Below are positions 5,046 to 27,843 of a stretch of 32,342 nt of DNA, one piece after another. Positions within the stretch are counted from its first letter, which is position 1. Every line of letters starts with the position of its first letter. Made by a program: the position numbers and the translations under genes. A model generated the notes under the pieces. It did not search any database. It saw nothing but the letters and a program-made list of their open reading frames with translations, and had not been told where the DNA came from. The stretch comes from a virus, in the IMG/VR virus record IMGVR_UViG_3300039159_000068, positions 4,165 to 36,506 of that record. One strand, given 5' to 3'.

Positions 5046-5790
5046 GCCCGCCGTGTGAGATACCGTGCCGACGATGTTGCCCCGACGAAACGCTTGCGCA
5101 GGGCCTGCGCCCGTGGTCAGCAGCCGTCACGTCGCTGGTCGTCTGCACGGGCGGCAGGAATTGCCCGATGCTGACCGATGTGCTGGCCCCGGTTTTTTGC
5201 CGGATATCCAGCCCGCCAGCCGGTGTCAGCGGAACGTAGAAGACAGCGTTCAACGCCACCGCCGCGATACCCGCCGACGCCGTGGGGTATATCAGCGCGC
5301 CCGCCGCAATGGCCGATGATAGCGCCGCCGCCGATGCCGTCTGCGCCGTGGTCGATGCCACAAGAGCCGCCGCGTTGGACGCCAACAGCGCGGCGTATAG
5401 CGCAGGATCAAGGTTGACGTTAAAGCCCGGAACCGCTGGCACTGGATTGTCCAGCAACTGCTTGACGGTATAGCTTGCCGCCGCGCCCACCTGCACCGCG
5501 CCCATGTCAAGCGTGACCCGCTGCGACATTCCGCCAAAGGGATCAGCCAGTGTAACCGTGAGCCCGATGCGGTAGAACGTGCCGCGCAGGCCCGAGGTGT
5601 TGCGCCACAGCACGGCCCCCGCTGGCATATCGCCGTTTGGGAGCAGCGCATAGCTACGCTCGATATTGCTCACCACATCGCCTAGCGTGTCGGTGTCATA
5701 GCCCGACAGCGTAAATCGTGCGACGGCATCCACCGGGGCCACGTTGTTGGGCAGGACAAAGCGTCCCGTGATAAGGGATGTTGTCGCCAT
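4981..5790 (-). CDS. Tail-tip/fibre protein, N-terminal part; reads into wrong frame after about 5126
   Basis: The ATG at 5790 has GGAG six bases upstream. Residues about 1-95 are a beta-rich domain (MATTSLITGRFVLPNN...), and 96-220 include an Ala-rich helical stretch and QFLPPVQTTSDV. After about 5127 the frame encodes an Arg/His/Cys-rich tail that looks like out-of-frame translation, while the sensible continuation lies in the +1 frame (to 4686). Removing one base near 5120-5130 would give a single protein of 367 residues. This may be a real mutation, a sequencing error or programmed frameshifting. Role: probable tail tip or fibre attachment, from position after the tail hub. Confidence 0.65.
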   Translation of the reverse strand: MATTSLITGRFVLPNNVAPVDAVARFTLSGYDTDTLGDVVSNIERSYALLPNGDMPAGAVLWRNTSGLRGTFYRIGLTVTLADPFGGMSQRVTLDMGAVQVGAAASYTVKQLLDNPVPAVPGFNVNLDPALYAALLASNAAALVASTTAQTASAAALSSAIAAGALIYPTASAGIAAVALNAVFYVPLTPAGGLDIRQKTGASTSVSIGQFLPPVQTTSDVTAADHGRRPCASVSSGQHRRHGISHGGRADWGGCRAGRQCQRPVYAVG

Positions 5791-5815
5791 TGCAGTCTCC
5801 GAATGTCAGGGGGTG

Positions 5816-6388
5816 TTAGGCGATGCCGCCAAGGCAATAAAAATCGAAATTAGCCGTGTTGGCTGATTGGTGCCAAGATAGCTGGAACGCATTGCAGCCA
5901 GCCGGAACGGTGTGCGTTCCCGATGCCAGAAACAGAAAGTTTAATGACCCAGATGATGGATTTCTAGCGGCTGATGCTGAAAAGTTAAACGCACCTGTTT
6001 GCAGGTTAAGACGCATTGACCCAGCGATACTGCCGCCGCCATCGGTGCCGGGAAAATTCGTGTTCACTATGTTTTGCCATGCGCCATAGGTTGAACCGTT
6101 ATTGCTGGAATAGCGGGCGCGCAAAATACGATCTGCCGAAACACTGCCAGTCAGATCAGCACGAACCAGCCCCATTCGGTCGCAGTTCGTATAACCGACT
6201 GCCGTGGTATCAACCACCGAAACAGCCCCCATTGATATTCCACCAAGGGAGACGCCTTGCACGCGCGGCGCACCCGGCGCACCCTCGGCAATGGAGATTG
6301 GATTGTCCCGAAGCGCCAAGCCACTCGCAGAGGTGATTGGCTTGCCGACCAAAAAGATCGCGTTAAGAAGCGTTGTCCAAGATGCCAT
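5816..6388 (-). CDS. Tail protein of unknown function
   Basis: The protein has 190 residues (MASWTTLLNAIFLVGKPITS...). It has an N-terminal short helix and then a beta-rich, Ser/Gly/Ala/Asn-rich region such as NNGSTYGAWQNIVNTNFPGT, typical of small structural proteins at the tail tip or fibre. The start lies three bases after the stop of the tail hub gene. I do not recognise a named family. Confidence 0.7.
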   Translation of the reverse strand: MASWTTLLNAIFLVGKPITSASGLALRDNPISIAEGAPGAPRVQGVSLGGISMGAVSVVDTTAVGYTNCDRMGLVRADLTGSVSADRILRARYSSNNGSTYGAWQNIVNTNFPGTDGGGSIAGSMRLNLQTGAFNFSASAARNPSSGSLNFLFLASGTHTVPAGCNAFQLSWHQSANTANFDFYCLGGIA

Positions 6389-6391
6389 GCT

Positions 6392-8155
6392 TTAATTCCA
6401 CTGATAACCGTTGGAGCCGTCAGGCAACAAGCCCGCAGCGTCAGCCCACCAAGCGCCATCCGCCTTTTGCAGATCGCTCGCCGCCGCATAATCCGGCGCA
6501 TCGTTCGCCACCCATGACGCGAACTTTCCGATTAATTCGTAGGTCTGCAAGTCAAGCGCATATATCTCACCCATCTTAACCTCCTCCCAACTGATAACTT
6601 GCCAGCGCGAAGAAAGCACCCGGCCCTCAGCGTCCACAATCTGCCGCTGCGTTACGTCGCAAACATCGCCAATCGTAATTGCCCGATCCTTGGAAGTGAC
6701 CTGAATTGTCAAAAACCTTGGCACGTCCCGATAGCGCGACAATATCCGGCTGATGACCTGTTGCGCATGTGCAGCCGTGCCGACCCATCGCGCCGTGATT
6801 TCCAGCGTGCGCGCCTCACCGCCAGCGCGGGGATCTTCGTTTTCGCCCTCAACAGTCGCATCCACAACAAGATAATTTGCCTTGTCGTTCTTGGTGTAAT
6901 CCTTCGGCCCGTAGTAAACGAAAACCCGCGTCAATGTGCTTTCAGGTTCGCGCTTGATCCGCACGCTATCGGCGACAATGTTCGACACTCCATCAAGCAA
7001 CGTCACCGCGCCCCTTGGCGGGCGGATGGCCTGCATCTTGACCTTGGCCGCGTATTCATCCCACCACACAAAGAACATTCCCTGCTGGCACGTCTCGCCC
7101 ATCAGATCGAATACAGGCGTGGGAGTCGTGATAACCGCCGTGCTGCGAAGCGTCGAAAGGTAGGTTTCACCCTCATCAATCCACATCGGCCCATCAATCA
7201 AAGCCGCACCAACAGGCGTGTGGTTTTGCAGCAGGTCACGCGCGCATTGCCACGTCGGCACGTCCTCGTAATAGCCAATCCGCTGAACCCGCGCATCAAT
7301 CGCCGCAGATGCCGCGACACTGCGCAACTGCCCACGAGCCACAGCCACGTCATAGATGCCCGGCTCAACAGTCACATGGCCAGAATAGAGCATGATTTCA
7401 GAGCCGATAATCAGCCCCTTGCGGGTGGATATGCCAAAGGCTTTTGACAGGTTTGTTTCGTCATTGGTCAGAACCCGGATCGTGCTTTGCGTGTCGTCAA
7501 TGGCGCTGATCAATCGCACGTCCATGGCATCGGGGAACAGCGACCGCTTGCCCTCGGCCTGCACCAATGGAGATACACCGCTGATCGTGACGCCCCCGTT
7601 TCCATCCGGCCCGTCGATCTTGTCCACAGCGTAACGCCGCTGACGAAACTCACTCAATTCCTGCCCCGCGTAGCCGTCATAGACGACCAACTCCATGCCG
7701 CCAAAGAACCGATTGCGCGCGGCCCATACCGACCAGAACGTGCGGTCAGGCAATGCCCCCCGGTCGGCGGTGTAGAAGTCTCCAACATGATCGTCCCAAG
7801 GAAAGTCGCGCATTGAAACCCGGCAAGTCGCCTGCACACCAAACGGGCTTTTGCCCTCCAGCACGCCAGCCGCGTTTACTTGCGCCTTTGACGTGCTGAC
7901 GCTCAGGCCATCAACCGGAATGCAGTTCGTGCGGATCTGGTTTGTGACCGCGAAGTCACCGAAAGCGAATTGACCGGGGCGGTTGCTGATGAACATCCAC
8001 TCGATTGTCCCGCTGTTCACAAAGGCCGTTTGCGCCTTGCACGTCGGCCATGTCTGGAAACACTTGGGCGTGCCAGTTGCGGGGCAAGCCCCCACACCGA
8101 AGCGCAGGCTGCAACGCTTTTGCCGAAAGCCGACAATCTGGACCGGATCAAGCAT
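6392..8155 (-). CDS. Large tail tip / baseplate hub protein with N-terminal four-cysteine motif
   Basis: The protein has 587 residues. It begins with a four-Cys cluster (Cys15, Cys24, Cys32, Cys39; ...CSLRFGVGAC...KCFQTWPTC). I know this pattern from tail proteins of long-tailed phages, and it may bind a metal or Fe-S cluster as in lambda gpL. The middle contains repeated beta segments with hub features (DGYAGQELSEFRQRRYAVDKI, split by strands), and the C-terminal part (SRILSRYRDVPRFLTIQV, then ITIGDVCDVTQRQI) resembles the ring-forming hub fold. It follows the distal tail gene with an eight-base overlap, in the usual hub position. The exact name is not certain. Confidence 0.75.
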   Translation of the reverse strand: MLDPVQIVGFRQKRCSLRFGVGACPATGTPKCFQTWPTCKAQTAFVNSGTIEWMFISNRPGQFAFGDFAVTNQIRTNCIPVDGLSVSTSKAQVNAAGVLEGKSPFGVQATCRVSMRDFPWDDHVGDFYTADRGALPDRTFWSVWAARNRFFGGMELVVYDGYAGQELSEFRQRRYAVDKIDGPDGNGGVTISGVSPLVQAEGKRSLFPDAMDVRLISAIDDTQSTIRVLTNDETNLSKAFGISTRKGLIIGSEIMLYSGHVTVEPGIYDVAVARGQLRSVAASAAIDARVQRIGYYEDVPTWQCARDLLQNHTPVGAALIDGPMWIDEGETYLSTLRSTAVITTPTPVFDLMGETCQQGMFFVWWDEYAAKVKMQAIRPPRGAVTLLDGVSNIVADSVRIKREPESTLTRVFVYYGPKDYTKNDKANYLVVDATVEGENEDPRAGGEARTLEITARWVGTAAHAQQVISRILSRYRDVPRFLTIQVTSKDRAITIGDVCDVTQRQIVDAEGRVLSSRWQVISWEEVKMGEIYALDLQTYELIGKFASWVANDAPDYAAASDLQKADGAWWADAAGLLPDGSNGYQWN

Positions 8156-15507: not shown

Positions 15508-16708
15508 TGGTTGCCTCCTGGGGATGCATTGCACCCCGTGAAACCGTATTGGCCCAGCCATCAGACACAGGATTAAGCCCCATTTCGGCCCGGATTTCGT
15601 TGACTGTCATCCATGCGGACTGCCCACCGGCGCCAAGCGCCTTGGTGTAGTAATCGGCCTGATCCTTGAAGTCGCCGCGGAGAAGGTTGCGCTCATCAAG
15701 ATCAATCGTCAGGCCGGTTACGTTGCCCAGAATGTCGCGGTTTGCCGCCTGCTCAAAGCGTTCGATCCACGGGCCAAGCGTGTGAATGACGTGCATCCTA
15801 AACATCTGCTCGGCGCTGGCATACGTCGCGGCTTTATCGGCCTGCATCAGCATGATCGGCTGAACCCGAAGCGCCCGCGCGATCTCCTCAATCTGCAAGC
15901 GCCGCGTTTCAATGTGCTGCGCGTCAACGCTCGTCATCGTCATCGAAGAAAACTTTGCGTCACCGTCCAGAACAGCAATTCCGCCATCGCCGTTAGGCCC
16001 GTAGCGGTCTTGCCATGTTTCGCGCAGCTTCTGAGCCGTCTCCGGTGCTAATTTCTGTGCAAAAGACAGGATTCCCGAGGGTTTACCGCCGTTGCCAGCC
16101 AGCTTTGATTGTTGCTTCTCCAGCGCGCGGGAAAGCCCGATCGCCTCGCGCGCCTGCCGCACGGCGGGTATTGCCTTGAACCCATCCAAGGACGGGCCGC
16201 GAAGGTAGAAAACCTGGTCCAATTCAAAGAATTCGTGCGACTTGTCCGAGTGGTCTACCCTGATATTAAGGGTCCAGTCGGACCGCTGCTCAACCGACCA
16301 TGACCCAACCGGGACTGGAAGCAGCTCCCGGACCTCTCCATTTACTACATTCTTGATCGCAATCGCGCCCTCGCCGAGAACCGCGTTGAAAATCATCCCC
16401 TCGCGAAACTCATAGGACGTTTGCCATGCGTTCGGTCGCACAGCCAACAGCCGGTGTGCCCAATGGTCGGGCTGCTGCTGCCATACGCTCAGGCCGGAAG
16501 CTTCATCCTGAGATACGGACATAACCCTGACGGGCATTTGCCCAATGCCCTCGGCGATAACCCTTGCGCCGCAAAAAACTGCCGTCACATCAAGCGCCGT
16601 GCGCTCGTTTACAGTCTCGCCCGAGTAAGTGCCCCACCCGATCCATCCAGCCATCGCGCCGAGCTGGCTGACGGTGTAGGTCGTGCTTTTCTTCAGCCAT
16701 CCAAACAT
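15488..16708 (-). CDS. Portal protein, HK97 family
   Basis: The protein has 406 residues. It has the typical beginning (FGWLKK...), VNERTALDVTAVFCGARVIA, 'MPVRV', 'WQTSYEFREGM' and MLMQADKAATYASAEQMFRM. It forms the dodecameric ring through which DNA enters. The ATG overlaps the TerL stop by one base (TGATG); a TTG at 16711 is less likely. Confidence 0.95.
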   Translation of the reverse strand: MFGWLKKSTTYTVSQLGAMAGWIGWGTYSGETVNERTALDVTAVFCGARVIAEGIGQMPVRVMSVSQDEASGLSVWQQQPDHWAHRLLAVRPNAWQTSYEFREGMIFNAVLGEGAIAIKNVVNGEVRELLPVPVGSWSVEQRSDWTLNIRVDHSDKSHEFFELDQVFYLRGPSLDGFKAIPAVRQAREAIGLSRALEKQQSKLAGNGGKPSGILSFAQKLAPETAQKLRETWQDRYGPNGDGGIAVLDGDAKFSSMTMTSVDAQHIETRRLQIEEIARALRVQPIMLMQADKAATYASAEQMFRMHVIHTLGPWIERFEQAANRDILGNVTGLTIDLDERNLLRGDFKDQADYYTKALGAGGQSAWMTVNEIRAEMGLNPVSDGWANTVSRGAMHPQEATNGIQAP

Positions 16709-19530
16709 CAAAGCACCATCAACCCATTCTCTTCGATATAGGACGGCAGGTGAACGCCAGCCCGCGCCGTCGCCGCGCCAACAGCCATCGCCAATGCAAC
16801 TGCCATGTCTATCCTCGCCGTCGACTTGTGTTTTGTAAACCGCCGCAAATCCGCTGGCGAACGGTCAAACGTAGCCGACATGACAGCCGACCGAAGCGCC
16901 GGGTTAACATGCACCCTGATCCGCTTTTCCATGATCAGCGTTTCCAGTTCATCCACCGAACCCGGCATCCAAAGTTGGATTTCCTCGCCGTCATCAGTCT
17001 CGCGCTTGCGTTTATTCCAGCCCTGCGGATGGTCAAGGATTGGCAGGCTTGCGCCCATGTCGCCAAGGATGCCCTCGAAGTCGCCAATCAGGTAATTGTC
17101 ATACGCCACGAAGTCCAAATCATAGGCGTCCGCATCGTCAAGCAAATCCTGCGCGACAAAATCCAGCCGCGTTTTCTTGCCCGGCGTGGCGGTCACATAT
17201 CCAGCCTCTGCCCACAAGTGATAGGGCGCACCGTCCTTCTCAGCCCGTGCCAGCATCGTGTCCGCTGGCGTGTAGCCGTGAACGAAAGCTGCAAAATTGG
17301 GCTTCCCGTCTTCGGTCTGCCCGTCATCAAACAGCAAAGCCTTGGCGGTAAGGTCGGTCTTGGCCGAAAGATCGAGACCACCCCAACACTTCTTGCCCGC
17401 AAAGTCCTCAATCGTCAGGCCGGGGTCTTCCACCGACTGCCACATGTCGCGGCTGATCCACGCCGATTCCGCATCTGTCCATTGGCAGAAGTGCAAGCGC
17501 CGGATGCCGTTTGCCTTCGCCGCAATGTCCTTCGCCTGCTTGACTTGGATTGCCAGATATTCGGCTGTAATCGTCACGCCCAGAAGCGGGTTTGCCTTAA
17601 TCCAGCAGGATGGGTCAGTGAAGGGATCGTCCTTGTCGTCAAGCGCGCAGACATAGGCGAAGGCCGTGTCGTCATCGACCTCGCCCGCCGCAACCGCAAC
17701 CGCGTGCTTGCGTTCCTGCCAGCAAATGCTTTTACGGTCGCTGCCCGAGTTGGTAATCATCACCAGCAACGGCTGTTCCCGAAACTTGAAACCTCGCTCT
17801 AGGATCTCGATCACGCCGCCGTCAGGATGCTCGTGGACCTCATCACAAAGTGCAAAATGTGGACGCGGCCCTGAACCTGTCTTTTTCGTTTCACGCGATA
17901 CCGGGCGAAAGAAACTGCCCGACTTCATGTGCGCCAAGTTGTATTCCCGGCCCGGCCCGCCAGATCTGCGGATGACCCGATCCAGCGCCGGGGCCTTGTC
18001 AACCATGCCGACAGCATCACGGAATAGAATGCCCGCCTGCTCCTTTGTCGCGCCTGCCGCATAAATCTGCGCCGCGGCCTCGCCGTCCGATACCATGCCA
18101 TAAAGACCAATCGCGCCGACGAACGGTGAGTTATGGGTCGGAACCATTTCGCGCCCGCAAAGGAACATGCTGTCGGCAGAGTTCACAGTGATGCATCGGA
18201 CCGCAACGCTTGGAACCGGGCGGCACGCAACGATGCGCCGATCTGATGAAAGCCTGCGGCGTTCGTGTGCTTTTACCTGTCTCTCTGCCTTCCGGGCCAG
18301 CTTGAATACGGGGGTGTCCCAAGGCGCGAAGAAACACACCCGATACTTTGCGCTGATGTCCCTGCCATTCAGAGTGGCGCGACCTTCAATCAAGCTAGCC
18401 TTCAACCCAAGAGAAAGAGCCAGTTCCAGAACGCCGTCGGCGAGCGACTTGTTTGTCGCCGTGTATTCGCACTGCCCCGTCTTTGCGATGCTGCCGTCTG
18501 TGTCCATCAAACCTTGCAGTAGAGCCAAACGCTGCGCCTTGGACCCGCGAAGGTATGCCTGTGGGATGTGCTTATTTCTCAAGACAGACAGGCTGCGCAG
18601 CCGCTCCATAAGTGTGTTGCCGCGAACGCCGCGACCCTCGCTAAGTGAATAGCGGCCAGTTGTGTTCGAGTGCCGTTTCTGCTGGAGCACAGCCTGACCG
18701 CAAGCTGCAATCTCTTCTAAGATTTGGTGGTCGTCATAGGCACAGGTCAGACGGGCGCAGTCGCTATCACCATCCCCCAGCCAAGCGCCCAGAACATAAG
18801 GTGGAACAGTGAAGGACGCTTCTGGCAAATCAAGCGCGCCACATAGTGAAACGCTATGGTTGGCAGATTGATATTTCCCGTTAGAGTTTCGCAGGGTTTC
18901 CGCAATCTCGCGCGTCGTTTTGATTGTTACGCCGCCCGGTTTAGGCCTGCGGTGTTCAGTCTCCCAAAGGTGTTCGGCAGACGCAACAATCACCGCGCCG
19001 TCGTCAAACTTGACCTCGTAGCAGTCGCGGTCGAACGAAAAGGGATGCGCGTGCGAGACGCGGCACGGTTTCCCGTCGCTGCCTAGCACTTCATCACCAT
19101 CGGACAGCGCGCCCATTGTCGTCCAGCCTGTTGGCGTCGGGATAGGTGTATCAACCGCCAACGCCTTGCCGTTTCCCTTGCCTTGCTCGATGTAAGCCCG
19201 GCGAAACCTTCGCTTGCCAGTCTTGGCCCACTTCCACCCGAACAAAGAACCAGCCGTGAATTGCTGCGAAGGCTCAAGGTTGAATGGCCGACCGTCAAAC
19301 TGGCCGTCACTCAGCCGCAGAACCGTGCCGCAGAACCGATAGAACCTTTCAGCCGCCGCTGTATCCCACACCAGCCCGCGCTTTGGCCCGTCGACCAGAT
19401 CCCGCATATGCCGCGCGCACGCATCCCGAACGTGCGGCCCCGCTACGATCTCGCCCGCGATGACCGACTGCGCGTAGGCTGTCGCCGGGTCAGTTGATAA
19501 ATTCATCGGCGGGATCTTGGCCTTCTTCAT
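16708..19530 (-). CDS. terL: Terminase large subunit with intein in Walker A
   Basis: The precursor has 940 residues. Residues 1-122 and 468-940 are the extein (595 residues after splicing), the usual TerL size. The Walker A Q-GKGNGK-S is split: Lys122 ends the N-extein, and Ser468 starts the C-extein. Walker B is ALCDEV (Asp563, Glu564). The nuclease metal ligands fit Asp720 (GLDLSAKTDL), Asp811 (FVAYDNY) and Asp909 (RIDMAV). The motor cuts concatemers and packages DNA through the portal. Starts possible: ATG 19530 or ATG 19506; no Shine-Dalgarno decides. The gene begins inside the TerS gene. See the intein entry for the insert. Confidence 0.93.
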   Translation of the reverse strand: MKKAKIPPMNLSTDPATAYAQSVIAGEIVAGPHVRDACARHMRDLVDGPKRGLVWDTAAAERFYRFCGTVLRLSDGQFDGRPFNLEPSQQFTAGSLFGWKWAKTGKRRFRRAYIEQGKGNGKALAVDTPIPTPTGWTTMGALSDGDEVLGSDGKPCRVSHAHPFSFDRDCYEVKFDDGAVIVASAEHLWETEHRRPKPGGVTIKTTREIAETLRNSNGKYQSANHSVSLCGALDLPEASFTVPPYVLGAWLGDGDSDCARLTCAYDDHQILEEIAACGQAVLQQKRHSNTTGRYSLSEGRGVRGNTLMERLRSLSVLRNKHIPQAYLRGSKAQRLALLQGLMDTDGSIAKTGQCEYTATNKSLADGVLELALSLGLKASLIEGRATLNGRDISAKYRVCFFAPWDTPVFKLARKAERQVKAHERRRLSSDRRIVACRPVPSVAVRCITVNSADSMFLCGREMVPTHNSPFVGAIGLYGMVSDGEAAAQIYAAGATKEQAGILFRDAVGMVDKAPALDRVIRRSGGPGREYNLAHMKSGSFFRPVSRETKKTGSGPRPHFALCDEVHEHPDGGVIEILERGFKFREQPLLVMITNSGSDRKSICWQERKHAVAVAAGEVDDDTAFAYVCALDDKDDPFTDPSCWIKANPLLGVTITAEYLAIQVKQAKDIAAKANGIRRLHFCQWTDAESAWISRDMWQSVEDPGLTIEDFAGKKCWGGLDLSAKTDLTAKALLFDDGQTEDGKPNFAAFVHGYTPADTMLARAEKDGAPYHLWAEAGYVTATPGKKTRLDFVAQDLLDDADAYDLDFVAYDNYLIGDFEGILGDMGASLPILDHPQGWNKRKRETDDGEEIQLWMPGSVDELETLIMEKRIRVHVNPALRSAVMSATFDRSPADLRRFTKHKSTARIDMAVALAMAVGAATARAGVHLPSYIEENGLMVL
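18130..19164 (-). other. Intein with LAGLIDADG homing endonuclease, class 3 (WCT) type
   Basis: Residues 123-467 of the TerL precursor (345 residues) form an intein. It starts with Ala (ALAVDTPIPTPTGWTTMGAL), not the usual Cys or Ser, and ends VPTHN before Ser468. The WCT set is present: Trp189 in block B (AEHLW), Cys446 in block F (VRCITV) and Thr465 in block G (PTHN). This marks class 3 splicing, where the block F Cys starts a branched intermediate. LAGLIDADG blocks are VLGAWLGDGD (246-255) and LLQGLMDTDG (337-346), both with their acidic residues, so the homing endonuclease looks intact. It interrupts the ATP-binding loop, the most conserved site. Confidence 0.9.
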
Positions 19531-19961: not shown

Positions 19962-20756
19962 TTAATTCACCGCCCACCATGCCTTTACGGCCTCGATTTG
20001 GCTGTGCATTGCCTCTTTGCGGTCTGGATCTGCCTTGATACGGGCGATGCAAACGCTTTCAGGCGTGCGCAACAGATGGATTGTGACGTTTCCGAGCGCA
20101 TCTCGCCATGCGTTGCGCTCGTCTTGGGTTGGTGCGGTCGCGATTAGGTAGCATATGCCGTTTGTCTTTCGGCTCAGTGCGCGTATTTCCACGTCACGCA
20201 GGCTGAACGCGGCCCGGTATATCTCTTTTCTTGTGTCCCACTTCGTTCCGCCCACTCGCTCTCGCAGCAGATCGAAGTCGATCACCGTGTCTTCGGTCTT
20301 TGCGTTGGCCTCGATGTAAGTTGACTTGCCTGCCGCTGGTGGGCCTGACACCAGCACCACAGGAATGCCGCTTGGCCTCACGCCGTCTGGTATGCTGTAG
20401 CCCCACCGCTTCGGGCCGGTTGGCCACCCGTCTGCGCTGATGGTTATCTTGGCGCGGCCTGATCCGCGTTCGATTGCGCTCTTGGCGTCGTGGCAGTCGC
20501 GGCACAGGCTTTCGAGGTTGCCTGGCTCGTCGTCGCCGCCCTTGGACTTAGCGACGATGTGGTCGACTGCGTGGTCGTAGGGCTGCAAGCCAAGTGGTGT
20601 CAGTCGTCCGTCACGATTGCAGGCTTGGCACAGATACATGTCGCGCTTGAGTATCGACAGGCGCAGCTTGGTCCATGCTGTTCCGTATCCACGGTCATGG
20701 CGTGATCCGTGGTTGCCTTTCCATCCGCCGTTGGGTTTAGTGACAGGATCATCCAC
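19962..20756 (-). CDS. HNH endonuclease fused to a P-loop kinase-like domain
   Basis: The protein has 264 residues. The N-terminal domain (about 15-100) is HNH with CQACNRDG (Cys43, Cys46), DHIVAKSKGG (His66), and CRDCHDAK (Cys85, Cys88, His89). The C-terminal domain (about 125-264) has Walker A VSGPPAAGKST (137-146 region), a DFD segment (160-162), and a helical lid typical of AAA or polynucleotide/nucleoside-kinase-like proteins. Start GTG at 20756: no ATG fits. HNH proteins next to terminase help cos cleavage and packaging; the added ATP/kinase domain may phosphorylate or repair ends. The fusion is an inference about function. Confidence 0.82.
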   Translation of the reverse strand: MDDPVTKPNGGWKGNHGSRHDRGYGTAWTKLRLSILKRDMYLCQACNRDGRLTPLGLQPYDHAVDHIVAKSKGGDDEPGNLESLCRDCHDAKSAIERGSGRAKITISADGWPTGPKRWGYSIPDGVRPSGIPVVLVSGPPAAGKSTYIEANAKTEDTVIDFDLLRERVGGTKWDTRKEIYRAAFSLRDVEIRALSRKTNGICYLIATAPTQDERNAWRDALGNVTIHLLRTPESVCIARIKADPDRKEAMHSQIEAVKAWWAVN

Positions 20757-23703: not shown

Positions 23704-24146
23704 TCCCGCGCCTCGATCTTGGCGTCATGCTTGGTCGCGCGCCACAACGCGTATTTGCCCCCGTTTTGGATGACACAATCATATTCGATCTGGCCCGTGC
23801 GGCTCATCTCGGACAGGAACCCAGATGCGTTCTGCATGGATTGGAACAGGCCCTTCTGGTTCATGTGCGCGAATATCTCGCGGGTGGATCTTTCACCGTC
23901 GCCGATGAATTGCAGCACGGCGTCAAAGCGCTGTTGCTTCATCTGCATCTGCTTTGCCTGGTAGGCCATCAGCTTAGGCCCCATCGCGGTTAGCGTGACG
24001 GCGGGTGCAGCGCCGGGCCTGCGGCCATTGTCGCGCTCGGATGCGTGCGCGGTTTTCCGCATGTGCGCCGACAGCATGGCGCGCAGTTCGGGCGTCACTT
24101 TGGACGGGTCAAGGTTGCGGATCAGGGCTTGGATGTTGGCGGTCAT
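23700..24146 (-). CDS. Probable winged-helix DNA-binding protein
   Basis: The protein has 148 residues (MTANIQALIRNLDPSKVTPE...). The C-terminal half QRFDAVLQFIGDGERSTREI, then GFLSEMSRTGQIEYD and IQNGGKYALW, has the helix-turn-helix plus wing pattern. The N-terminal half is helical and basic. GAGG lies nine bases before the ATG. A regulator or DNA-binding accessory for replication is plausible; the family is not identified. Confidence 0.65.
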   Translation of the reverse strand: MTANIQALIRNLDPSKVTPELRAMLSAHMRKTAHASERDNGRRPGAAPAVTLTAMGPKLMAYQAKQMQMKQQRFDAVLQFIGDGERSTREIFAHMNQKGLFQSMQNASGFLSEMSRTGQIEYDCVIQNGGKYALWRATKHDAKIEARE

Positions 24147-24157
24147 TGTGCTGGTCC

Positions 24158-24739
24158 TCAAAATGGAATTTCGTCGTCAAGCGCGACTTCAAGCGCGGTC
24201 GGCTGGCGCACGGCGGAAATGGTCGCGCCGGGGAAGGCGGTCTTGATGGCGTCGACGGTTGGCAGGCTGTCCTGATAGCCCTGCAACAGGTGCGCGACCT
24301 CTTGCATGGTCAGGATGGTCAGGCCGGGGTGCGCGGCTTTGGCGGCGGGCCAATGCGCGGTATCTCGGATCAAGCCATAGGTCAGGCCGCAGGCTTGCAG
24401 CTGCCACACGTCCGATGATGCCTGAGGGCACCCTGCCGCCGCTGCTTCGGCATCCATGGCGGCAAGGCCTCGGATGCAGACAGCGGCCCAAGCGGCGGTG
24501 TCGGTCGGGTTGGATGCGTCGTAAGCCTCGTTCAACCTGCCGACGCTGAAGGCGTATTTTTGGTTCATCTCGGCACTGACCAACTCGGGCAGTCGGTCGA
24601 CGCCCCATTTCAAATCCATGGCGCGGGTTGCAGTATCCAGCGGGCCAAGCGCGAAGTCTGATTTGATTTCGTCGGGTGTCGCCTTCGGATGGATAAGGCG
24701 GTCGTCTTTCCGCTGTCGTTGGGGGGCGCGCTGCGTCAT
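24158..24739 (-). CDS. Conserved phage protein of unknown function
   Basis: The protein has 193 residues and starts MTQRAPQRQRKDDRLIHPKA. Similar proteins (basic start, DDKLIHPKATP..., LGPLDS, WGVDRLPELV, AMDAAA) are known from Rhodobacter-type phages and their genomic neighbours, with no assigned function. The region is helical. The ATG lies at the edge of the repeat region 24763-25013, and may overlap the stop of a candidate small frame (24736-25029). Confidence 0.7.
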   Translation of the reverse strand: MTQRAPQRQRKDDRLIHPKATPDEIKSDFALGPLDTATRAMDLKWGVDRLPELVSAEMNQKYAFSVGRLNEAYDASNPTDTAAWAAVCIRGLAAMDAEAAAAGCPQASSDVWQLQACGLTYGLIRDTAHWPAAKAAHPGLTILTMQEVAHLLQGYQDSLPTVDAIKTAFPGATISAVRQPTALEVALDDEIPF

Positions 24740-25029
24740 GCCAAAGCCCCCGAATTTTGAAAGGGCACAAGGCACAAGTGTTTCCTATTCCGCTGGTGTT
24801 TCTTGTATTCTTCTCTTTTTCCCTCTTTTTGGCCCTTTTTGGCTGTTTTTCTCATTTCAGCTCTACCCCCCTCTTTACTTGTGCCCTTGTGCCCTTTTGT
24901 AAGAAAAAAAATAGAAAACAGCAGCTTATGAGGGCACAAGTTAAGATTCCAACTTGTGCCCGACTTGTGCCTTGTGCCCAAAAGGGCACAAGCATGGCTT
25001 TCAGCTTGTGCCCTGCTTTCAAAGGTCAT
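24736..25029 (-). CDS. Uncertain small protein spanning the nonamer array
   Basis: A 97-residue frame starts with an ATG at 25029 preceded by GGAGGGG, overlaps the helicase stop and ends by ATGA with the next gene. These signs favour a real gene. But the product is Lys/Arg/His-rich with odd composition (KGQKEGKREEYKKHQRN) and is created largely by repeats and a purine-rich tract, so the frame may be fortuitous. I keep it as low confidence. Confidence 0.3.
   Translation of the reverse strand: MTFESRAQAESHACALLGTRHKSGTSWNLNLCPHKLLFSIFFLTKGHKGTSKEGGRAEMRKTAKKGQKEGKREEYKKHQRNRKHLCLVPFQNSGALA
24763..25013. repeat. Array of nonamer CTTGTGCCC repeats, candidate iteron origin of replication
   Basis: Eight exact copies of CTTGTGCCC or its complement GGGCACAAG lie at 24763, 24878, 24886, 24932, 24953, 24971, 24984 and 25005, with two eight-base copies at 24771 and 24964. 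They occur in both orientations. Copies at 24971 and 24984 form a perfect nine-base stem around AAAA. A pyrimidine-rich stretch (24779-24877) and an A-rich run (24895-24920) lie between groups. It lies directly 3' of the primase-helicase gene, as in SaPI origins. Iteron-origin function is inference. Confidence 0.7.
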
Positions 25030-27538
25030 TTTGCCCCTCCGACGTGTCTAGAATTGCCCGCAATTCAGCGGCTGTTGCACCGCCCAAAAGGGCCGATTTC
25101 TTGAACCAAAGCCGCCGATTATTGCCTTTCCATTTGACTGTTCCGGGCAATGCCACCCACCCCGCGCTTGCCAGTGCGCGTGCCATCCGGCTGGTGTTCA
25201 GACGTTGTGCGGTCGCACCCATGATCGCTTGATTGAGGCAATCTGTTGCCAGCAGGTTTTCGGTGACGCCATGCCAGCCAAGGGCGATAGCTTCTTCAAC
25301 GTCGATCTGGTCTGGCGTTCTGGTCGACTGGATCATGGCTTGCTTGTGCGCGGTGATCTCGGGCCCGGCCACGCGGTCAAACGTGTCTAGGGGCACGTTC
25401 AGCAGCCAGCCCCGGATAACCTCGGGCTCTTGGTCAATCGCGCCGTGCAGGGCATCCCAATATGGCTTGTCGAACTCGGCAAGCATGGCGGCGCGGTCGT
25501 CAAATCTGGTCTTGAACACACCCCATCTTCGGTCGCCCTCATCAAGCGCGAGGGCGTCCATGTAGTTGGTCAGGGCCAGATAGTTGGTGACGTTCTTTAC
25601 CTGCTTGCCGTCTTTACCCTTTCGCACCACTTCCACCGAGTCGTTGGTTATCAGAGGTTTCAGCTTGTTCATGGCGTCGTGTCGGCTGTTGCCGTGAACC
25701 CTGATTTCCTCCAACACCTTGACGCATGACCCTTCGGCCCATCCGGTGAAGTCTGAAAACATGGTTTCGGGGCTAACCGGGCCCACGTTCATCGTGCCCA
25801 TGGCGGCGGTCAGCATCTTGGCAAGTGTGGTCTTGCCGTCTCCTTGCACGCCCACGATGATCGGGGCCCACAGGATCTTTACGCCGGGGCGCCTGACGTT
25901 ATGCGCCATCCATTGAATGATGATCGCGCCGGCTGGGCCCAATATGTTCAGGATATGGCGCTCGCAAAGCTGCCAAGCTGGCTTGGCTTGCCATTCTGGA
26001 TCGGCCTTGGGCACGCTCTTGCCCATGTAGCTGTTGATAAAGGGGATTCCCCCACTCATGACGTGCAGATCGCCTTGCAGGTCGGGCCGATACATCGTGC
26101 TATGGGCGATAGTGCCGTTCAGGTATTCCACCAGCGTCTTGGCGGGCGGATACTTCTTTTCGGTGACGCCGTCCTTTGTTGGTATCAGCACGGGTCCGGT
26201 GATCGGGGCCATTGCCAGGTTGAAGGCGTTGACGCCCATGATGCGCCCGGTCGGGATATGGTAAAATTCGTTGTCGCCTGACAGGAACGCCCATTCTTTC
26301 AAGGCCCGCGCCTCTGGGGTTAGTGCATCGTCTGGCGTTGCGGCGGGCGGGTTGTCCGGGTTTGCCTCGGGGCCCGCCTCTGGCCTTGTCTTGGTCGCGG
26401 CTTGCGGTGCCGGACCTGGCGGGCCAAAGTCATCGCCGATTGGCATTTCCAGCGCGCCATGCACGGGCCCGACTGTCGGTGGGTTGATCTCACGCCCGTA
26501 TGCCCTCACAGCGGCCTTGTAGTCGCCTCTGTGTTCATAATGAACGAACAGGTCAAAGGCATCGCCATAGCAGCAATGATCCTTTACCGCGCCGATAGCT
26601 GCCGCCATGTCGGAACCGGACAGGGATACCCATGTCACGCTGTCAAACAGCCGCACGGCATAGCTGCCGCTGGATTGGTTGGGGCTTTGCCAGTGATCGG
26701 ATTGACCCTGTTGCTTATACCCGTATTTCGCCATCAGGTTTTGCAGGTCATGGCGTTCGTTGAACACCTCGACCGGGCTTGCATCCTCGTCAGTTAGGCG
26801 CTTTGCGCGTGCGGCCTGCCGTCTGTCGGATGCCTCTTGCGCGGCCTCTCCCACGGCGGCACGCAGGGTTTGGCGGCGCTTGCCTATGGCGCTGTCGTCG
26901 TTGATCCGCAGTAACGCGCCCCGGTTTAGGTGAAAGTCATAGAACAGCGGCGCGCCATCCGGCCCCCGGCGCTCGGGCGGCACATTGGGCAGGAAAACAA
27001 GCTGCCCGGTGCGGTCTAGGGCCCGGTCGCACTTGACGCACTGGAACTGGTAAAGATCGAATATTGCACCTTGGGTTTCCTTGTATTCGGAACCCGGCAG
27101 GGGTGGCGATATGAAGGTCAGCACCCGCCACTTGCGATTGTCTGCCGTGGCCGAACTGCTTGAATACACGATGAACGATGCGCCATCGCCAAAAACGGCG
27201 GTGGTTGCCTCGACCACTTCGGCAAGCGACGGGTTGCCCTCGTCTATGTCGACTGGCAGGACGTGATAGGCCCCATTGGCCCGCTGTGCCTCGTGGCTGC
27301 GCGCATCGTGCCCGATGTAGTCTGACCCGATGAACCAAGGTGCATCCATCTTGGGCAATGATGCCGGGCGCTGCGCAAGTGCGGCAATTTCCTTGCCGGT
27401 GATAAACCCATAATCCTTGCCCGCGGATTCGTGCGGGTTTGGAACGTCGCCATCTTTGGTTGATATGACAAGAGCGTGCGTGTCGCTGCCCCCGTTGCCT
27501 GTGACCATGCGCGGCCCGACTGTGACGGTCATGTTCAT
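25019..27538 (-). CDS. AEP-type primase fused to a D5/SF3-type helicase
   Basis: The protein has 839 residues. The N-terminal part has the archaeo-eukaryotic primase DhD motif VDIDEG (Asp97, Asp99) and a Trp/Arg strand (NRKWRVL, 134-140). A Pro-rich linker (about 370-405) leads to the helicase part with Walker A GVQGDGKTT (563-571), a Walker B-like segment (VKVLEEIR, 606-613) and ALTNYMDAL (655-663) near the sensor, as in DUF5906/VirE-type helicases. It should start and unwind replication forks. A C-terminal domain (about 740-839) may be a winged helix that reads the nonamer array just downstream. The ATG overlaps the preceding TGA. Confidence 0.9.
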   Translation of the reverse strand: MNMTVTVGPRMVTGNGGSDTHALVISTKDGDVPNPHESAGKDYGFITGKEIAALAQRPASLPKMDAPWFIGSDYIGHDARSHEAQRANGAYHVLPVDIDEGNPSLAEVVEATTAVFGDGASFIVYSSSSATADNRKWRVLTFISPPLPGSEYKETQGAIFDLYQFQCVKCDRALDRTGQLVFLPNVPPERRGPDGAPLFYDFHLNRGALLRINDDSAIGKRRQTLRAAVGEAAQEASDRRQAARAKRLTDEDASPVEVFNERHDLQNLMAKYGYKQQGQSDHWQSPNQSSGSYAVRLFDSVTWVSLSGSDMAAAIGAVKDHCCYGDAFDLFVHYEHRGDYKAAVRAYGREINPPTVGPVHGALEMPIGDDFGPPGPAPQAATKTRPEAGPEANPDNPPAATPDDALTPEARALKEWAFLSGDNEFYHIPTGRIMGVNAFNLAMAPITGPVLIPTKDGVTEKKYPPAKTLVEYLNGTIAHSTMYRPDLQGDLHVMSGGIPFINSYMGKSVPKADPEWQAKPAWQLCERHILNILGPAGAIIIQWMAHNVRRPGVKILWAPIIVGVQGDGKTTLAKMLTAAMGTMNVGPVSPETMFSDFTGWAEGSCVKVLEEIRVHGNSRHDAMNKLKPLITNDSVEVVRKGKDGKQVKNVTNYLALTNYMDALALDEGDRRWGVFKTRFDDRAAMLAEFDKPYWDALHGAIDQEPEVIRGWLLNVPLDTFDRVAGPEITAHKQAMIQSTRTPDQIDVEEAIALGWHGVTENLLATDCLNQAIMGATAQRLNTSRMARALASAGWVALPGTVKWKGNNRRLWFKKSALLGGATAAELRAILDTSEGQNDL

Positions 27539-27843
27539 TGTTCGATTAGGTCACAATCGGCGGCTGCGCCCTCGTTTGCGTCCTTTACGGCACAAGAAAT
27601 CATGACGTGAACCGCCGACCAGCCATCTACGGCGCGCTCCGGCCTGCGTTGCCCTTTGGCCTTATGCGGCCAGAAATTAAGCTCGATTGGCTCGTCCGAT
27701 CCATCATCCAAAAAGGCTTGAACGTGCCATGGGGCTTTGACGGGGGATGGCTGGAAAAATCGGATATTTGGGTAGCATTCAACAAGCAAATCAAACTGAT
27801 CGCAGTTTGCACGCTCGAAAGCGTCTCTAAAAAAGTATTGCAT
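27535..27843 (-). CDS. Small phage protein of unknown function
   Basis: The protein has 102 residues (MQYFFRDAFERANCDQFDLL...). The stretches APWHVQAFLDDGSDEPIELN and FWPHKAKGQRRP suggest a small mixed alpha/beta domain. AAGG lies seven bases before the GTG/ATG pair; the ATG at 27843 is chosen. It is ATGA-coupled to the primase-helicase. Function unknown. Confidence 0.6.
   Translation of the reverse strand: MQYFFRDAFERANCDQFDLLVECYPNIRFFQPSPVKAPWHVQAFLDDGSDEPIELNFWPHKAKGQRRPERAVDGWSAVHVMISCAVKDANEGAAADCDLIEQ

Follow-up and report, generated by a model that had tools for sequence, protein, structure and literature searches.

A bidirectional iteron array directly 3' of an AEP-SF3 initiator gene as a probable replication origin of a tailed phage

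Ten short repeats at positions 24763-25013 of a tailed-phage sequence very probably serve as the site where its replication begins. The origin would be of the iteron-based SaPI/P4 type and bound by the C-terminal winged helix of the phage initiator. The window, i.e., the whole stretch of DNA analyzed (32,342 nucleotides), comprises bases 4165-36506 of a 36,506-base viral record, which is linear and metagenomic and has no end repeats. Direct observations comprise the unique repeats and where they lie, the domains of the adjacent protein, and the retention of the array position in relatives, together with a covariation of the iteron with the C-terminal winged helix and its recognition helix in the branch of relatives with a RecA-type helicase (RecA/RepA branch). 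We infer that the winged-helix rule of this branch also applies to the SF3 branch, to which the window belongs. An initial annotation had named the region a candidate phage origin with a SaPI-like layout; the conserved 3' position of the array, the covariation of iteron and C-terminus, and correct predictions in further loci all strengthen that proposal.

The array consists of eight exact copies of CTTGTGCCC and two copies of CTTGTGCCT, six on the plus strand and four on the minus strand. The first cluster contains an exact CTTGTGCCC at 24763-24771 (-) and a CTTGTGCCT at 24770-24778 (-), which overlaps the preceding copy at a 7-bp step. It is followed by a spacer at 24780-24869 (+), which is AT-rich and ~83-85% pyrimidine on the plus strand and is a candidate unwinding region. 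The second cluster begins with two exact CTTGTGCCC copies at 24878-24886 (+) and 24886-24894 (+), set at an 8-bp step, and an A-rich run at 24901-24918 (+) lies in the AT-rich part of the array. Next, CTTGTGCCC at 24932-24940 (-) forms an inverted pair, with arms of 11 bp, with the exact copy at 24953-24961 (+). A CTTGTGCCT at 24964-24972 (+) is followed by CTTGTGCCC at 24971-24979 (+), which forms a further inverted pair across AAAA with the exact copy at 24984-24992 (-). The last CTTGTGCCC (25005-25013, +) and the stop codon that ends the initiator gene are 5 bp apart. AT content was 0.57-0.65 over most of 24780-24960, versus 0.40 genome-wide. All ten copies listed by the initial annotation (eight nonamers and two eight-base copies in both orientations within 24763-25013) were thus re-found, and the low-GC region, the pyrimidine-rich tract (24780-24869), and the A-rich run (24901-24918) that it had described were present as well.

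A count of the nonamer in the full record had also been suggested. CTTGTGCCC occurred eight times in the 36,506 bases, with every copy inside the array, and the reversed control pattern of CTTGTGCCC had 0 occurrences in the whole 36,506-base record. When the 281-bp array segment was shuffled 2,000 times, the maximum for any 9-mer was 4 copies, versus the 8 observed. Outside the array, CTTGTGCC was found once more, at ~27589, and a single CTTGTGCCG copy at 27588-27596 (-), ~50 bp upstream of the primase-helicase start codon, may be due to chance. In viral contigs, no second nonamer array was present among the matches listed for pairs of CTTGTGCC. The loci with at least 4 copies of TTGTGCC, the window excepted, carried them nearly all on one strand and mostly at spacings that are multiples of three (among the matches listed); repeats with such spacings are probably coding. 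In the L048 locus, four TTGTGCC repeats at 211-281 are spaced by 20-22 bp, which, unlike the spacing of coding repeats, is not a multiple of three; they are possibly another iteron array. An Rfam search gave no match. The GC skew of the full record had its cumulative minimum at window position 23810 and its detrended minimum at 19994, and it showed no clear switch at the array.

The initiator gene next to the array (25019-27538, -) encodes an 839-aa protein with an AEP primase, an SF3 helicase, and a C-terminal winged helix. The AEP primase module, ~residues 1-350 (26489-27538, -), contains a DxD motif at D97/D99 and a conserved R138. The SF3/DUF5906 helicase module covers ~residues 405-720 (25379-26326, -). 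In the AlphaFold2 model, a winged helix is predicted at residues 742-813 (25100-25315, -; block pLDDT mostly 71-90), and we propose it as the putative iteron-binding domain. Its predicted recognition helix comprises residues 782-791, TSRMARALAS (25166-25195, -, same model), and a role of this helix in recognition is suggested by the covariation of helix and iteron in relatives. The AEP-plus-SF3-like-helicase reading of this gene given at the outset agrees with a DUF5906 match (E=9e-17) and with fold matches to NrS-1 and S-2L. In Foldseek, the 839-aa protein matched the NrS-1 helicase region (E=1.8e-9), and the primase half matched the AEP domain of cyanophage S-2L (PrimPol) with a probability of 1.00. 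PDB sequence searches with the AEP or C-terminal alignments gave no significant match.

The primase and helicase halves of the protein are closest in sequence to different phages: the primase half shows ~47% identity to Roseobacter phages CRP-811/821/823/831, and the helicase half shows 47% identity to Paracoccus phage KLEP18-1. A plasmid search yielded four weak matches only, to the helicase half. A conserved ORF lies beyond the array at 24158-24739 (-); it shows 31-34% identity to the ORF at the same place in CRP phages and had no match in Pfam or PHROG. Genes for terminase, portal, capsid, and tail proteins are all present in the record. The terminase large subunit (940 aa; 16708-19530, -) carries an insertion of ~350 residues (~120-468) with LAGLIDADG/homing-endonuclease matches, a probable intein.

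The Foldseek search also matched the 839-aa protein to PriRep1, a SaPI protein, bound to dsDNA (7pds; probability 0.98). As described in PMC7581432, SaPI origins are located directly downstream of rep, carry iterons, and are recognized by the Rep C-terminus, and the same layout is proposed for SCCmec, with Cch2 and a putative ori. The likeness of the window to SaPI and SCCmec would include a self-loading initiator helicase, iterons just 3' of its gene, recognition by the C-terminus (proposed for the window), and several helicase families in one layout (PMC7581432). Multiple short repeats lie directly 3' of the initiator gene, the AT-rich stretch 24780-24869 is flanked by the iteron clusters 24763-24778 and 24878-25013, and a replicative helicase domain is combined with a C-terminal DNA-binding domain (SF3/DUF5906 plus predicted winged helix), as in SaPIs. 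In contrast to SaPIs, the window belongs to a tailed phage that carries head and tail genes of its own, has other hosts, and has CTTGTGCCC in both orientations, and its relatives join the same AEP module to RecA-type, VapE-like, D5-type, or DUF927 helicases. Because the record encodes terminase, portal, capsid, and tail proteins, the window was not filed as a SaPI; assignment to SaPI proper, a helper-dependent satellite, was rejected.

The alpha protein of satellite phage P4 combines a primase, an SF3 helicase, and a C-terminal origin-binding domain acting on iterons. The window initiator likewise has a primase, an SF3 helicase, and a C-terminal predicted winged helix, together with iterons (comparison based on PMC4234260), but the P4 alpha primase is of the bacterial Toprim type and not an AEP (PMC4234260). 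A P4 alpha-type initiator (Toprim primase plus SF3) was rejected since the primase half of the window protein folds as an AEP. NrS-1 is similar in that AEP and SF3 occur in one phage protein, and it gave the best solved-structure match of the helicase part (6k9c/6k9e); as in the NrS-1 group, an AEP with a conserved DxD and an SF3 helicase are present in one chain. For NrS-1, only two copies of an 8-nt recognition sequence are reported, at the centre of the genome, and an iteron array is not described in the passages covered (PMC7102993). CRP-822-type roseophages are the closest relatives of the AEP half and have the gene order nuclease, SSB, primase-helicase, array, and conserved ORF, but they differ by a RecA-type helicase and by TATAAA or TACAAA iterons. 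The helicase of CRP-type relatives folds like RSF1010 RepA, whereas the RSF1010 functions are split over three proteins, RepA/RepB/RepC (PMC4234260).

The protein of pRN1, ORF904, resembles the window initiator in having AEP, SF3, and a C-terminal winged helix, with an essential origin 3' of the gene (PMC4234260). That origin is a 100-nt stem-loop without iterons (PMC4234260), and the window array folds better than its shuffles (z -4.6), with a 17-bp stem that is a perfect inverted repeat. A large stem-loop might therefore be what is recognized in the window, instead of iterons, although we consider this very unlikely. Apart from one base pair, the stem is made up entirely of inverted iterons, so the iterons account for it, and relatives keep arrays in both orientations and change the repeat word together with the recognition helix, as expected for the reading of bases. 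The pRN1-type class, a large 3' stem-loop without iterons, was rejected for the window, in which iterons are present.

Arrays 3' of homologous genes were sought with the primase half as query, which yielded 69 loci from viruses and 5 from genomes. As an unbiased measure, the most frequent 7-mer was counted in the 300 bp that follow each gene, with a threshold of at least 5 copies. Such a 7-mer was present within 300 bp in 43 of 66 relative loci versus 11 of 1,863 background windows. In most of the remaining AEP-module loci, the array was located one or two ORFs further downstream; a group of AEP relatives taken as array-less was rejected as such, its arrays being displaced by one or two ORFs. 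The array position was kept whether the AEP was joined to an SF3/DUF5906, VapE-like, D5-type, DUF927, or RecA-type helicase. The repeat word differed between nearly all groups of relatives: it is GGCACAAG in the window and ACTACAAA, TTGTATAAA, CTACGATT, TTTAGGACA, ATGTGAAA, CTACATA, TGCGCCACC, CCTGTCCG, and others elsewhere. In two genome loci of Paracoccus and Cereibacter (L205, 8879-9000; L206, 8897-9020), an AEP ORF is followed by a separate DUF927 helicase ORF and, directly after it, by an array of TTGTTCCCC. This TTGTTCCCC resembles TTGTGCCC of the window. The SF3 half retrieved few relatives. KLEP18-1 and L009, which share the SF3 plus winged-helix half (44-47%) and lack this AEP, lacked an array next to the gene; the KLEP18-1 genome as a whole showed none either, and the distant Vibrio phage L209 had no array. 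The possibility that relatives keep the protein and lack the array, which had been named as a counter-argument to the origin reading, was not borne out by the AEP-sharing relatives, nearly all of which carry arrays; the array-less KLEP18-1 and L009 have only the SF3/winged-helix half in common with the window protein.

Two further patterns were noted among the relatives. A second class of C-termini, ending in ...GRVGEMN/GRVGEQ (L140, L159, L161, L171, L173, L174, and L193), has displaced arrays one or two ORFs downstream, made of ~12-bp TCCAGTGACGCA/TCCAGTGGCGCA-type repeats in inverted pairs. In the RecA-helicase branch (L133 at 6163-6330, L141, L149, L158, L135, and others), a CCYWTARGG-like palindrome lies between inverted iteron pairs and stays nearly constant while the iteron word changes.

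The covariation of protein and iteron was evaluated in 26 non-redundant relatives with a RecA-type helicase (RecA/RepA branch), whose loci are related and not independent. With primase and helicase controlled, iteron similarity correlated with C-terminal identity (partial r 0.535, permutation p 0.0005); the value for the primase given the rest was 0.12 (p 0.10), which is not significant. As measured in this branch, iteron identity follows the C-terminal winged helix; it follows neither the primase nor the core of the helicase. Array and winged helix appear to coevolve. Between CRP-821 and CRP-823, identity is 96% over the primase and 99% over the helicase but 67% over the C-terminus, and the two phages have different iterons. 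CRP-831 shows 85% identity to CRP-821 over the primase but 99% over the C-terminus, and both phages carry the same iteron. In the DNA comparison of CRP-821 and CRP-823, identity drops from ~-380 to +200 around the stop codon, and the flanks (helicase and downstream ORF) are mostly 90-97% identical. Judged from these alignments, the C-terminus and the array form one exchangeable cassette in Roseobacter (CRP) phages.

The same data bear on two other functions of the repeats. With the primase gene on one side and the beginning of the following gene on the other, the array occupies a leader position, and it could be an operator for transcription of the conserved downstream ORF operon (leftwards from 24739), to which a repressor or the initiator itself would bind, and not an origin. 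In the L264 locus, moreover, a methyltransferase gene separates the array from the primase gene, and the array has remained next to the downstream ORF. We regard an operator as quite unlikely, because the iteron follows the initiator C-terminus, whereas the downstream ORF is ~81-95% identical across the CRP iteron types, and because ten copies in 250 bp around an AT-rich spacer exceed the needs of an operator. A scan of 24500-25300, limited to the sigma-70 type, found no sigma-70-like promoter, and near the array neither a sigma-70 promoter nor a terminator scored above chance. Alternatively, the repeats could be template sites for primer initiation by the AEP domain, with no binding by the winged helix. 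GTG is the priming motif reported for related AEP enzymes, pRN1 ORF904 and NrS-1 polymerase (PMC8718748); CTTGTGCCC contains GTG, and every window iteron gives GTG on one strand. This alternative is most improbable given that the iteron type tracks the C-terminus and not the primase, and that the iterons of several relatives (TATAAA, TACGATT, and TACAAA) have neither GTG nor CAC. The two roles, primer start and winged-helix binding, could coexist.

The binding of iterons by the winged helix is further suggested by a correspondence between iteron type and a few residues. AlphaFold2 modeling of the relative L137 gave PDSAYSGAVKSLIQ as helix 3 of its winged-helix domain, and the helix residues were mapped by alignment across 54 distinct C-termini (80 of the 284 relatives were listed). 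Among the 54 C-termini, helix SSYxN pairs with iteron TATAAA, SAYxG with TACAAA, GAYx[AS] with TACGA, SAYxT with TACATA or TACAGA, FDQ with TCCTAAA, and WRD with TTCACAT. The TATAAA and TACAAA classes each recur in backgrounds that are ~50% identical over the rest of the domain. With the rest of the C-terminus controlled, six helix residues correlated with iteron type (partial r 0.46, p 0.0005). Conversely, with the helix controlled, the remaining C-terminal residues had a value of -0.08 and added nothing.

Because the C-terminus and the array are adjacent, the covariation may be partly explicable by linkage alone. They lie within ~0.5 kb, and the swapped tract spans exactly both, so the covariation might be a by-product of one recombination tract that says nothing about binding. 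We consider this unlikely, since the same helix residues and iteron core recur in ~50%-identical backgrounds (TATAAA and TACAAA classes), the remaining C-terminus contributes nothing once the helix is given, and the match of helix and iteron in L264 holds across an inserted ORF. For L264, where the gene is not directly followed by an array, the helix residues predicted TACATA; densely packed CTACATA repeats were indeed found ~780 bp further on, beyond a cytosine-methyltransferase-like ORF (5693-6463) inserted between the primase-helicase gene and the array, which is intact. Rules fixed beforehand matched in four of the four newly fetched loci that they covered (L300, L326, L335, and L345), a moderate test only, because these loci are related to known classes. 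The alternatives weighed here each explain part of the facts, and none explains the correspondence of helix residues across divergent backgrounds.

For the origin reading, the following mechanism is proposed. The 839-aa protein would act as a self-loading initiator, with its C-terminal winged helix binding the CTTGTGCCC iterons in both orientations. The bound protein would assemble, probably as opposed SF3 hexamers, beside the AT-rich and pyrimidine-rich spacer, which the SF3 ring would melt and unwind. The fused AEP domain would then prime, and extension is probably carried out by a host polymerase, because no DNA polymerase was recognized among the proteins scanned.

The initial annotation had held that the system may be new. 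This is only partly right: SaPI origins already show such a layout; the family and its helix-iteron correspondence were not found described. In the literature covered, to which most subscription journals did not belong, neither origins of this family nor a correspondence between helix and iteron in phage initiators was found. In the CRP-phage paper (PMC12629253), the words 'repeat', 'primase', and 'intergenic' do not occur, and 'origin' occurs once, outside a replication context in the passages covered. The window carries a tailed-phage AEP-SF3 initiator with a new iteron on a known layout; what looks new is that tailed phages fuse the AEP to several helicases and that helix and iteron correspond.

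The analysis supplies a probable origin for marine and other alphaproteobacterial phages, which is missing from the annotation of the CRP phages examined. One primase module is joined to at least five helicase types, and the rule of a 3' iteron array is retained. The protein sequence by itself could suffice to predict origins, as it did in L264 and in four other loci. The match of helix and iteron bears on how initiators and origins change jointly without a non-functional intermediate, and it reduces this question to small binding and plasmid tests. We think it reasonably probable that a widespread family of tailed-phage initiators reads its iterons through a small set of residues in one recognition helix, and that the C-terminus and the array are swapped as a specificity-changing cassette while primase, helicase, and flanks remain unchanged. 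If so, free-living phages would possess a naturally occurring, multi-allelic system of origin incompatibility in which the helix predicts the iteron by a code, and the window would be the AEP-SF3 representative of this helix-coded system.
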